The translations under genes were made by a program, and so were the position numbers. Of a stretch of 64,000 bases of DNA, positions 34,953 to 46,595 are shown piece after piece. The stretch's first letter is position 1. The number at the start of each line of letters is the position of its first letter. The notes beneath the pieces were generated by a model, which did no database searches, was not told the DNA's origin, and worked only from the letters and a program-made list of their open reading frames with translations. Source of the DNA: Gillisia mitskevichiae (GTDB lineage: Bacteria; Bacteroidota; Bacteroidia; Flavobacteriales; Flavobacteriaceae); NCBI RefSeq assembly GCF_003634585.1, contig NZ_RBLG01000001.1, positions 1,178,001-1,242,000 on the forward strand. The letters run 5' to 3'.

Positions 34953-35036
34953 CTTTGACGGGAATTGCTAGCGAAGTTTACACTGCTTTAGCATTTTTTA
35001 AGGGTAGCAATCAGTCAAATCATTCCCTGTAATCGT
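34953..35036 (-). promoter_or_regulatory. Candidate SAM-II-like riboswitch in the metK leader
   Basis: Read on the minus strand, the leader has AGGG, then TGATTTGACTGATTGCTA, CCCT, a run of As and TGCTAAAGCAGT. This order matches the SAM-II pseudoknot: P1 (AGGG/CCCT, extended by TTA/TAA past a bulged C), loop 1 starting TGATTT and ending in TTGC-like bases, and the conserved GCTAAA. P2 would be ACTG in loop 1 pairing with CAGT at the 3' end. Downstream, TAGCAATTCCC (34960-34970) can instead pair with ATTGCTA and GGGAAT of the aptamer, a possible switching strand. Base pairing and order are seen; the class assignment is by memory of the consensus. SAM-V, a relative, is an alternative. Confidence 0.55.
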
Positions 35037-35179: not shown

Positions 35180-35276
35180 ACAATCGCTCAATCCTTAGCG
35201 CAAAGAAAATGATTTCTTCCGAAGGACTGATATTCAGTAGGTTAATTAAGTTTTTTGAAAAATAATTGAAATTAAA

Positions 35277-35309
35277 TTTGTTTTATAAAAGATTCTGTCG
35301 TTAAATTTG
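35277..35309 (+). promoter_or_regulatory. Promoter of the metY leader
   Basis: TTTG (35277-35280), a 21-nt spacer, and TAAATTTG (35302-35309) match the Bacteroidetes consensus exactly. Transcription would start near 35315, about 14 nt before the first leader-peptide ATG. Confidence 0.8.
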
Positions 35310-35328
35310 TAAAATAGATTTTAACAAG

Positions 35329-35397
35329 ATGAATCAAGTAATGTGTAATATGTGTATGATGATGTTGGGGAAACCCGCAGCGTTCACTATTGCATAA
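35329..35397 (+). CDS. Met/Cys-rich leader peptide 1 of the met operon (22 residues)
   Basis: A 22-codon ORF beginning MNQVMCNMCMMM and ending GKPAAFTIA. Six methionines and two cysteines fall in the first twelve codons, far above chance. It starts just downstream of a consensus promoter and ends 23 nt before a strong intrinsic terminator. GCAGCG near its end (35377-35382) is complementary to CGCTGC in the 5' arm of that terminator (35425-35430), and TTGCA (35390-35394) to TGCAA (35416-35420). A ribosome stalled on the Met/Cys codons would leave these free to form an antiterminator; one reaching the stop would cover them. This is the classical amino-acid attenuation layout, here probably sensing charged Met (and Cys) tRNA. 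Confidence 0.85.
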   Translation: MNQVMCNMCMMMLGKPAAFTIA

Positions 35398-35419
35398 AAC
35401 TTAACTTATAAGAATTGCA

Positions 35420-35450
35420 AAAGCCGCTGCCAACCGCAGCGGCTTTTTTT
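35420..35450 (+). terminator. Attenuator terminator 1 of the met operon
   Basis: AAGCCGCTGC pairs perfectly with GCAGCGGCTT around CAACC, followed by T7. No protein gene precedes it except the 22-codon leader, so it is an attenuator rather than an end-of-gene terminator. Confidence 0.92.
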
Positions 35451-35512
35451 GTTTATATAAGTCAAAATGGAATTTTAAAAACGCCGATTAAATTCAGCTC
35501 GATCAAAATAAA

Positions 35513-35611
35513 ATGAAAATAACTTTCTCAAATATTTCAATAATGTGCTGCAATATGCAAATGTGTATGATGTACGCAACAAGCCGTTATTGCCAAAAAT
35601 TCAGGATGTAA
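35513..35611 (+). CDS. Met/Cys-rich leader peptide 2 of the met operon (32 residues)
   Basis: A second leader ORF, 32 codons, between attenuator terminator 1 and terminator 2. Its core reads MCCNMQMCMMY (residues 11-21), and the whole chain has seven Met and four Cys, including a Met as the last residue. An internal start at codon 11 is possible. TTGCCA at 35590-35595, inside the ORF after the Met/Cys cluster, is complementary to TGGCAA (35646-35651), which includes bases of the 5' arm of terminator 2. That again gives an antiterminator that a stalled ribosome would favour. The ORF is not a copy of leader 1 beyond the shared C-N-M-x-M-C-M-M-like core. Confidence 0.78.
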   Translation: MKITFSNISIMCCNMQMCMMYATSRYCQKFRM

Positions 35612-35636
35612 ATTAGTTTTATATAATTCAATTCCT

Positions 35637-35671
35637 AAATCCCTCTGGCAAATCTGCCAGAGGGATTTTTT
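35637..35671 (+). terminator. Attenuator terminator 2 of the met operon
   Basis: AAATCCCTCTGGCA pairs perfectly (14 bp) with TGCCAGAGGGATTT around AATC, followed by a T6 run. It lies 56 nt before the metY start codon. Confidence 0.92.
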
Positions 35672-35726
35672 ATTTCAGCAAAATCAAAATCATTTAATAT
35701 CAAAATAAACCTTTAAAACAAAAATC

Positions 35727-37019
35727 ATGAGCACACAACAATTCGCAACAAACGCACTGCATGCATGTCACGATGTAACTACCAATGGAGGAACTAGAGC
35801 GGTTCCTATCTATTTAACATCTTCGTATGTTTTTAAAGATTCAGATCACGCTGCCAGACTATTCGCTTTGGCAGAACCGGGATTTATTTACACCAGACTT
35901 AACAATCCAACCAACGATATTCTCGAGCAAAGATTGGCTGCTTTGGAAGGTGGTATTGGAGCAGTGGTAACCGCATCTGGTACTGCAGCCATCAACACCA
36001 CTTTGTTAACCTTACTAAGATCTGGAGATCACATTGTAGCTTCCAATAGTCTTTATGGAGGTACCTATAATCTTCTAAATGTAACCTTGCCAAGATTTGG
36101 GATTACCACCACTTTTGTAGATCCATCCAATCCGGAAAACTTTCAAAAAGCAGCCCAAGAAAACACCAGGGTTTTCTTTATAGAATCACTTGGGAATCCA
36201 AAATTAGATGTATTAGATATCAAGGCTATTTCTAAACATGCAAAATCGCACAAAGTTCCTTTGATCGTGGATAATACGGTAGCGACTCCTTCGCTTTTAA
36301 ATCCGATCCAGTACGGGGCAGATATTGTTATTCATTCCCTTACCAAATACATCAATGGGAATGGGACTTCTCTTGGAGGTGTAATTATAGATGCCGGTAA
36401 ATTTGACTGGGCTAATGGGAAATTCCCGGAATTCACCGAGCCTTCTGCAGGTTATCATGGTCTTGTTTATCATGATGTTTTAAAGGAAGCAGCCTTTATT
36501 GCAAAAGTAAGAATAGAAGGATTGCGGGATCATGGTGCGGCATTAAGTCCTTTCAATGCTTTTCAGATCATTCAAGGCTTGGAAACTTTAGAGATCAGGA
36601 TCAAAAAACACAGTGAAAATGCGTTGGCATTGGCTAAATGGTTACAAGAACAAGAGCAGGTAAAATGGGTGAATTACCCGGGACTTAAGAGCAGTGAATA
36701 TTATGAACTTGCACAGCAATATTTACCTAAGGGGCAAAGCGGTGTGGTGACCTTTGGAGTAGAAGGAGGTTTTGATGCTGCAAAGGTGATTGCCGATGAA
36801 ACTACTATTTTCTCCTTGCTTGCAAATATTGGGGATACCAAATCCTTAATAATTCATCCCGCCAGTACAACTCATCAACAATTAAGTGATGAACAACAGG
36901 AATCTACCGGAGTTACCAAAGATCTAATAAGGCTTTCTGTAGGATTGGAGGATCTGGAAGATCTTAAATCCGATCTTAAACAGGCATTTTCCAAGATCGG
37001 TAAAAAGGTTTTAAAATAA
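35727..37019 (+). CDS. metY: O-acetylhomoserine sulfhydrylase MetY
   Basis: PLP enzyme that makes homocysteine from O-acetylhomoserine and sulfide. The 430-residue length is that of MetY rather than the ~390 of cystathionine synthases. Seen: HACHDVTTNGGTRAVPIYLTSSYVFKDSDHAARLFAL, YTRLNNPTNDILEQRLAALEGG, the Schiff-base lysine in DIVIHSLTKYINGNGTSLGGVI (about 210), and the C-terminal LANIGDTKSLIIHPASTTHQQL with the substrate arginine region IRLSVGLED. It is the first structural gene after two Met/Cys-codon attenuators. The metX gene follows after 165 nt. Sulfide would come from the sulfate assimilation operon downstream. Confidence 0.95.
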   Translation: MSTQQFATNALHACHDVTTNGGTRAVPIYLTSSYVFKDSDHAARLFALAEPGFIYTRLNNPTNDILEQRLAALEGGIGAVVTASGTAAINTTLLTLLRSGDHIVASNSLYGGTYNLLNVTLPRFGITTTFVDPSNPENFQKAAQENTRVFFIESLGNPKLDVLDIKAISKHAKSHKVPLIVDNTVATPSLLNPIQYGADIVIHSLTKYINGNGTSLGGVIIDAGKFDWANGKFPEFTEPSAGYHGLVYHDVLKEAAFIAKVRIEGLRDHGAALSPFNAFQIIQGLETLEIRIKKHSENALALAKWLQEQEQVKWVNYPGLKSSEYYELAQQYLPKGQSGVVTFGVEGGFDAAKVIADETTIFSLLANIGDTKSLIIHPASTTHQQLSDEQQESTGVTKDLIRLSVGLEDLEDLKSDLKQAFSKIGKKVLK

Positions 37020-40521: not shown

Positions 40522-40590
40522 ATGGATAAAGTGATTCGTAATATGTATAAATTAATGTGGGAGCTACCTACAGCAGCTGCATTTGCGTAA
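40522..40590 (+). CDS. Diverged leader peptide 1' ahead of the second homoserine dehydrogenase (22 residues)
   Basis: A 22-codon ORF of the same length and register as met leader 1: MDKVIRNMYKLMW against MNQVMCNMCMMML, then proline at 16 in both. Nearly all extra Met/Cys codons have changed (M5 to I, C6 to R, C9 to Y, M10 to K, M11 to L), leaving Met at 1, 8 and 12. A consensus promoter precedes it and a terminator with an identical GCCGCTGC-CAACC-GCAGCGGC core follows. It keeps GCAGC near its end, able to pair with the terminator 5' arm. Either a re-tuned or a decaying attenuator; whether it is translated is unproven. Confidence 0.6.
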   Translation: MDKVIRNMYKLMWELPTAAAFA

Positions 40591-40612
40591 AACTTAGAAT
40601 ATAAGAATTACC

Positions 40613-40642
40613 AAAGCCGCTGCCAACCGCAGCGGCTTTTTT
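40613..40642 (+). terminator. Attenuator terminator 1' (conserved copy)
   Basis: AAAGCCGCTGC pairs with GCAGCGGCTTT around CAACC, T6. Stem and loop match the copy at 35420-35450, including the CAACC loop. Confidence 0.9.
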
Positions 40643-40666
40643 GTTACAATAAATTGAAATTAGAGA

Positions 40667-40774
40667 ATGGAACTTAAATTGGAAATAAGTAAACCAAATA
40701 TCATGTGGATTAGTAAGCATTATAATTTTTATATGCATACGAATCGCACCTCTTTCAATTATCAGAAATTTTAG
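40667..40774 (+). pseudogene. Degenerate copy of met leader peptide 2
   Basis: A 35-codon ORF at the place corresponding to leader 2. Its end (MHTNRTSFNYQKF) aligns with MYATSRYCQKF of leader 2, and the flanking DNA (ATAATTCAATTC, then CCCTCTGG) is shared. It has kept only three Met and no Cys, and the terminator after it is damaged. Probably a relic of duplication. Confidence 0.5.
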
Positions 40775-40801
40775 ATTTTATATTAGTTATAATTCAATTC
40801 T

Positions 40802-40837
40802 AAATATCCCTCTGGTAATTTTTCCAAAGGGATATTT
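40802..40837 (+). terminator. Degenerate attenuator terminator 2'
   Basis: AAATATCCCT pairs with AGGGATATTT and TGG with CCA, but one mismatch interrupts the stem and only TTTACTTT follows instead of a T6 tract. Likely weak or dead as a terminator. The 40433-40943 gap contains nothing else that I recognise. Confidence 0.5.
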
Positions 40838-46411: not shown

Positions 46412-46443
46412 CAAGACTTAAGTTCTTATTTTTATTTAAAAAC

Positions 46444-46545
46444 GTTATCAAGAAAGGTGGAGGGATAAGACCCTATGAGACCTTGGCAACCCTCCTTTTG
46501 GAGAAGGTGCTACATTCTACTGCATTTTATTCGCAGATAGATAAC
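46444..46545 (+). promoter_or_regulatory. SAM-I (S-box) riboswitch
   Basis: P1 is GTTATC (46444-46449) with GATAAC (46540-46545). Between them are AAGAAAGGTGGAGGGA, the CCCTATGAGACC segment, TTGGCAACC, AAGGTGCTACATTCTAC and a CTGC...GCAG P4 hairpin, in the order of the S-box consensus. It precedes metH-metH-metF by 50 nt. No strong terminator follows (only AAAAGAATTCTTTT and a T6 run), so the expression platform is unclear and may act on translation. Confidence 0.92.
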
Positions 46546-46595
46546 AAAAAGAATTCTTTTCACTCCTCTTTTTTGATACATATATACTTCATAAT

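Follow-up and report, generated by a model that had tools for sequence, protein, structure and literature searches.

Amino-acid leader-peptide attenuators are classically represented by the trp, his, phe, thr, leu, and ilv leaders of enterobacteria, and genes for methionine and cysteine are known above all for control via riboswitches, T-boxes, and repressors. The leader upstream of metY in the marine bacterium Gillisia mitskevichiae resembles the classical attenuators in having a short ORF with codons for the product, predicted mutually exclusive protector, antiterminator, and terminator helices, and an intrinsic terminator before the first gene. It differs from them in preceding metY with Met and Cys codons, in having two full units per operon, in belonging to Flavobacteriaceae, and in its Bacteroidetes-type promoter. 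No sequence relation to the classical leaders was found, and the Rfam models His_leader and Thr_leader scored far under their thresholds.

Two tandem leader ORFs on one transcript have been described for mgtCBR of Salmonella, where the stages sense ATP and Pro; these leaders have no intrinsic-terminator hairpins and are, in the authors' words, 'a singular example' (PMC3641672). The metY leader shares the tandem arrangement, whereas it has Met/Cys codons and perfect intrinsic terminators in both stages. Mycobacterial cys operons carry polycysteine leaderless short ORFs without a conserved intrinsic terminator, and the same comparative study of Actinobacteria reported no conserved RNA structure before methionine operons (PMC1262725). 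Canestrari 2020, as cited in PMC9031893, found that Cys codons in a short upstream ORF regulate mycobacterial sulfur genes. These mycobacterial leaders are alike in having Cys codons upstream of sulfur genes, but lack Met codons and a conserved terminator. The SAM-I riboswitch (S-box, RF00162) is likewise cis-regulatory, acts in the same pathway, and occupies the same position before metY; it binds SAM, in contrast to the ribosome stalling predicted here.

A study of Flavobacterium psychrophilum, a member of the same family, presented 'strong clues' of leader-peptide attenuation before amino-acid biosynthesis operons (PMC9723704). Its main text does not name metY or methionine, and its passages on attenuation describe no tandem; the study may nevertheless already list part of the metY leader, and the metY region of F. 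psychrophilum (locus L030) carries both units. In the open-licence literature, we found no precedent for a methionine leader-peptide attenuator. An earlier note on this DNA, made from the letters alone, had regarded a well-described Met/Cys attenuator as not known from Bacteroidetes and a tandem as unusual anywhere. Ribosome-mediated attenuation is a known kind of control, while two serial units that combine Met/Cys sensing with intrinsic terminators appear to be new. As set out below, metY is very probably controlled by two ribosome-mediated transcription attenuators in series.

Tandem leader units between metK and metY

The window, i.e., the whole 64,000-nt stretch of G. mitskevichiae DNA that was analyzed, contains two units in tandem between divergent metK and metY, each consisting of a short ORF and a terminator. 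The closest relatives of the MetY of the window are those of other Gillisia (identity up to 97%). The features are as follows.

35277..35309, + strand: promoter of the leader, Bacteroidetes type (TTTG at 35277-35280, 21 nt, TAAATTTG at 35302-35309)
35329..35397, + strand: ORF1, leader peptide 1 of 22 codons, predicted Met-weighted sensor; peptide MNQVMCNMCMMMLGKPAAFTIA, conserved across genera
35342..35350, + strand: 5' arm of the protector helix P1, unit 1 (codons 5-8; partner 35388-35396)
35377..35382, + strand: antiterminator 5' arm, unit 1 (GCAGCG, codons 17-18; partner CGCTGC 35425-35430)
35388..35396, + strand: 3' arm of P1, unit 1 (TATTGCAta); the alternative partner of its TTGCA (35390-35394) is TGCAA at 35416-35420, an extension of the antiterminator
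35419..35447, + strand: terminator 1 (12 perfect pairs followed by T7; dG -19.8, z -6.0)
35513..35611, + strand: ORF2, leader peptide 2 of 32 codons, predicted Cys+Met sensor; peptide MKITFSNISIMCCNMQMCMMYATSRYCQKFRM, Met/Cys core kept across genera with varying order and number
35590..35595, + strand: antiterminator 5' arm, unit 2 (TTGCCA; partner TGGCAA 35646-35651)
35637..35668, + strand: terminator 2 (14 perfect pairs and a T-rich tail; dG -23.8, z -7.6)
35727..37019, + strand: metY, O-acetylhomoserine sulfhydrylase, first gene of the cluster (TIGR01326, 632.9 bits; cut-off 495.1)

The two ORFs, the two perfect terminators, and metY all lie where the earlier note had placed them, and so do the complementarities GCAGCG/CGCTGC, TTGCA/TGCAA, and TTGCCA/TGGCAA. 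What it had called a consensus promoter is present and is of the Bacteroidetes type, with ORF1 beginning 19 nt past the end of the -7 element. That note mentioned neither the protector helix nor a further tandem copy of the leader at 40522-40834.

Met and Cys account for 7 of the 21 codons in ORF1 (binomial P 3e-7) and 10 of the 31 in ORF2 (P 1e-9), when the window's own frequencies of Met (1.8%) and Cys (0.55%) are taken as background. ORF2 has more Met/Cys codons (10) than any other of the window's 435 short ORFs, and ORF1 comes second (7, tied with one other). Compared with shuffled sequences, the folding of the antiterminators (z -2.3 and -2.7 for units 1 and 2, respectively) was less extreme than that of the terminators. 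A short ORF enriched in Met/Cys codons and a predicted intrinsic terminator between the ORF and the first gene, as would be expected of a ribosome-mediated attenuator, are thus seen in the sequence. A small extra hairpin (TGGA..TCCG) right after the Met run was also spotted by eye.

Distribution of the leader in Flavobacteriaceae

The distribution was assessed in 80 metY loci picked on MetY similarity alone. The leader, as one or both units, was present in 43 of them, from Gillisia, Salegentibacter, Salinimicrobium, Christiangramia, and Flavobacterium including F. psychrophilum; it was absent in 36, and the remaining locus had too little upstream sequence to judge. When covariance models of the units were run on about 200 genomes of the family (one per genus), about a dozen and a half genera proved to have unit 1 before metY, and ten to have unit 2. 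Model matches occurred in 74 genomes, many of them weak and near 50 bits. One match at 51.5 bits in the genome of G. mitskevichiae itself, outside the window (G000:C2:489313), was an ordinary terminator behind a thioredoxin-reductase-like gene and was rejected. Because of this false match, matches near 50 bits were kept only when they had a Met/Cys ORF and a sulfur gene behind them. Unit 1 was not found outside the family in a 296-genome sweep of the phylum, in which the family-trained model may miss distant forms. An exact DNA pattern of the ORF1 core matched only in Gillisia among 397 genomes of the family, since Met and Cys codons swap places; profile models are therefore needed.

Loss of the second stage is possible, as some species have unit 1 only (L100, L107, and L108). 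In one Flavobacterium clade (L051 and relatives), a short Cys-rich ORF, MKIAIYNPRRCCRMC[CS], without a terminator takes the position of unit 2, some 114-63 nt upstream of metY, and is perhaps a remnant or a means of translational control. In F. psychrophilum (L030, 1160-1286), ORF1 apparently lacks its usual stop codon and extends through its own terminator; unit 2 is intact there.

Covariation of the alternative RNA helices

In unit 1, three competing helices covary: the protector P1, the antiterminator, and the terminator. P1 pairs codons 5-8 (TGYAATA) with the end of ORF1 (TATTGCA), and its covariation score of 0.217 against 0.145 in shuffles was reached by none of 500 shuffled sets; controls with slid arms scored far lower. 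Its pairs change from TGCAATA/TATTGCA to TACAATA/TATTGTA and AACAATA/TATTGTT, with a G-C to A-U exchange in 6 sequences. The antiterminator arm variants GCAGCG, GCAGAGG, GCAAGGG, and GCGAAGG each match the 5' arm of their own terminator, and terminator 1 was paired in 392 of 392 alignment cells (56 units). These changes are three-way because the arm within the ORF mimics the 3' arm of the terminator. The last codons of ORF1 also pair with the spacer before terminator 1 (TTGCA/TGCAA).

The antiterminator of unit 2 had a covariation score of 0.211 against 0.147 in shuffles (0 of 500), with TTGCC/GGCAA replaced by TTACC/GGTAA, and terminator 2 was paired in 100% of cells with changes on both sides in 6 of 10 pairs. 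Own antiterminator partners were compared with swapped ones by permutation, giving p of about 0.0009 for unit 1 and 0 of 20,000 permutations for unit 2. Since the MAFFT alignment shifts the Flavobacterium antiterminator arm by one base, the arms were compared in a hand-made register. Automatic folding gave only weak structures for unit 2 in Christiangramia and in two loci of Flavobacterium (dG -3.6 to -6.1), the fold window having cut the arm in several of these; for Christiangramia, where part of the arm had been clipped, pair counts were used.

The antiterminator arm of unit 1 is read in different frames, as SAE in L060 and PQR in L037, and that of unit 2 is read in another frame in L017 and L024. 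As judged from these frames, the arms are conserved as RNA and not as peptide. The predicted mutually exclusive antiterminator and terminator helices are backed by covariation in both units, while a protector helix that would form without translation is supported for unit 1 only. In the minimum-free-energy folds, which are equilibrium models, the terminator usually wins; antitermination must therefore be kinetic. The earlier note had argued that the 3' part of each ORF is complementary to the 5' side of its terminator and that stalling on Met/Cys codons would favour antitermination, and had named loss of the short ORFs or their Met/Cys codons in related genomes as evidence to the contrary. Both are conserved in many relatives, and the conservation and the covarying stems support this logic in both units.

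Met and Cys codons of the leader ORFs

In the set of 39 distinct ORF1 peptides with 22 codons, Met occupies codons 8, 11, and 12 in 35-38 peptides, and 34 peptides have either Met or Cys at codon 9 (split 13/21), as do 34 at codon 10 (split 16/18). A Met-Cys exchange alters all three bases, which indicates that codons 9-10 are under selection for the amino acid. Codon 6 is Cys in 33 of the 39 peptides, and where P1 changes, Tyr or Asn is found there. From these pairings, Cys6 is seen to be at least partly fixed by the RNA (TGYAATA with TATTGCA); this residue is confounded with P1, and the interchange at codons 9-10 is therefore the clearest evidence at the amino-acid level.

The units were mostly recognized via a Met/Cys threshold, which biases the following composition figures, whereas neither the covariation nor the 80-locus sample depends on that threshold alone. 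The fraction of Met and Cys was 0.28 and 0.31 in frame 0, compared with 0.11-0.12 and 0.02-0.05 in the other frames, and the mean internal residues were 4.0 Met and 2.0 Cys in unit 1 and 6.1 Met and 3.8 Cys in unit 2. Five of 50 distinct unit-1 peptides were free of Cys. Hence, unit 1 is predicted to sense mainly Met, and unit 2 to sense both Cys and Met.

The antiterminator arm starts 11-12 nt after the last Met/Cys codon in 56 of 59 unit-1 copies. PMC3641672 quotes a reach of 12-15 nt from the P site for a stalled ribosome. The spacing is about equal to this reach, and a stall would leave the antiterminator arm free.

The main rival explanation is nascent-peptide arrest, in which the Met/Cys-rich peptide itself, and not a lack of charged tRNA, would stall the ribosome, perhaps by binding metal or by responding to Met, Cys, or the redox state within the exit tunnel, with an identical RNA switch downstream. 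Arrest peptides such as TnaC control termination, and the leader peptides are Cys/Met-rich like metal-binding peptides. However, arrest peptides usually require fixed residues, whereas Met and Cys differ freely in order and number from genus to genus (MCNMCMMM, ICNMMCMM, MYNMSMMM, and CCCMAMQMM), the Cys-free unit-1 peptides lack one of the two residues altogether, and the C-terminal residues track the RNA and not the peptide. Arrest is disfavoured by this free reshuffling, and we regard it as improbable.

Mutual exclusion of the leader and the SAM-I riboswitch

In Rfam searches, every one of the 36 leaderless loci (including L012, L014, and L019) had a SAM-I riboswitch a short way upstream of metY, and none of the 38 leader-bearing metY loci searched had one; the loci are related and do not represent 74 independent events, but the exclusion of leader and SAM-I is complete. 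Elsewhere in the window, a SAM-II riboswitch (34978-35034, minus strand) belongs to the divergent metK, and a SAM-I riboswitch (46442-46547) precedes split metH. The Met/Cys leader is thus flanked by SAM-II and SAM-I, so that three sensor types occur in one sulfur cluster. Downstream, the gene order is metY, metX, homoserine dehydrogenase, an O-succinylhomoserine-sulfhydrylase-like gene, a second homoserine dehydrogenase, and an Rrf2-like regulator, followed by cysH/cysD/cysN-like genes, OsmC, the SAM-I riboswitch, split metH, and metF. Formal family assignments were made for metK, metY, metX, both homoserine dehydrogenases, the sulfhydrylase, OsmC, and a DUF2061 protein; the remaining genes were named from their translations.

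The alternation of leader and SAM-I also bears on the idea that we are dealing with ordinary terminators, which would insulate the divergent metK-metY region or mark the ends of small RNAs, with the Met-rich ORFs being incidental. Intrinsic terminators do occur between genes, and the rejected 51.5-bit match in this genome was such a one. Against this, the promoter, ORF, and terminator share the orientation of metY, and neither the three-way covariation, nor the frame-specific Met/Cys codons, nor the exclusive alternation with SAM-I would be expected of such terminators, which makes this explanation very unlikely. Least probable of all is a metabolite riboswitch, for SAM or another ligand, in a leader with untranslated ORFs: SAM-I sits at the same position in sister genera, but no Rfam family, including SAM-I, SAM-II, and T-box, reached its threshold in 35260-35730, the conserved RNA consists of helices that include coding-frame segments without an aptamer-like core, and the codon-level interchange of Met and Cys would be left unexplained.

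Single promoter and proposed mechanism

A perfect TAnnTTTG with a -33 element was found upstream of 29 of 59 unit-1 ORFs (0.15 would be expected from shuffled sequences), in almost all cases at a distance of 18-22 nt from the ATG. In contrast, perfect promoter-like sites preceded only 2 of 40 unit-2 ORFs, or 5 of 40 when one mismatch was allowed. As unit 1 has a promoter and unit 2 does not, the two units would act in series, and both are likely carried on one transcript from the single upstream promoter.

For the two attenuators in series, we propose the following mechanism, whose steps are deduced from the arrangement of the leader. Transcription would begin at the single promoter immediately ahead of ORF1. 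With ample charged Met-tRNA and Cys-tRNA, the ribosome would reach the leader stop and cover the 5' arm of the antiterminator, allowing the terminator to form. When charged Met- or Cys-tRNA is short, the ribosome would stall in the Met/Cys run; in unit 1, it would then cover the 5' arm of P1, the antiterminator arm would pair with the 5' arm of the terminator, and RNA polymerase would continue. If ORF1 were untranslated, the protector helix would form and transcription would stop. Polymerase that has passed unit 1 would face the same test at unit 2 with the Cys+Met peptide, and the two stages may cooperate and multiply the response. The genes behind metY are probably under the control of the tandem leader as well. 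A more tentative proposal, to which we give somewhat less than an even chance, is a combined gate in which Met-weighted unit 1, free of Cys codons in some genera, and Cys+Met unit 2 must both open, integrating the charging of Met-tRNA and Cys-tRNA, within a family-wide regulon (metY, metX, cysE, OsmC, and transport genes) that replaces SAM riboswitch control of metY. If the metY leader works as a doubled attenuator in alternation with SAM-I, it would represent an evolutionary swapping between SAM sensing and tRNA-charging sensing at one gene, provide a sequence-readable Met/Cys regulon for Flavobacteriaceae, and offer a natural system for asking why two serial stages persist.

Second tandem copy and leaders of other genes

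The second homoserine dehydrogenase gene of the cluster is preceded by another tandem copy of the leader, which has diverged.

40522..40590, + strand: ORF1' of a diverged unit 1, peptide MDKVIRNMYKLMWELPTAAAFA, with two internal Met codons kept
40614..40638, + strand: terminator 1', core GCCGCTGCCAACCGCAGCGGC shared with terminator 1
40667..40774, + strand: ORF2', peptide MELKLEISKPNIMWISKHYNFYMHTNRTSFNYQKF, with most of the Met/Cys core gone; matches model R2 weakly (48.3 bits)
40805..40834, + strand: terminator 2' of the second copy

This copy has relatives in several other Gillisia genomes, in which the terminators are kept, and it may represent a changed specificity or a weakened switch. 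By eye, it has its own TAnnTTTG-like promoter.

Leaders of the same family were also found before other genes. In Flavobacterium and relatives, they precede a cysE-like serine acetyltransferase gene (L145 and L146), and in Flavobacterium a single Met/Cys unit precedes a TonB-dependent receptor gene (L148, L149, L151, L154, and L155), which suggests uptake of a sulfur compound by this receptor. Others precede OsmC (L150, in tandem), metX (L121), and a Cys/Met PLP enzyme gene (L156). An EamA transporter gene (L143, minus strand) is preceded by two short Met/Cys-containing ORFs with terminators of unrelated sequence. Such Met/Cys leaders predict sulfur-related roles for the TonB receptor and the EamA protein. 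The two ORFs of L143, whose terminators lie at 2105 and 2266 of the reverse complement, possibly form a tandem leader that evolved independently.
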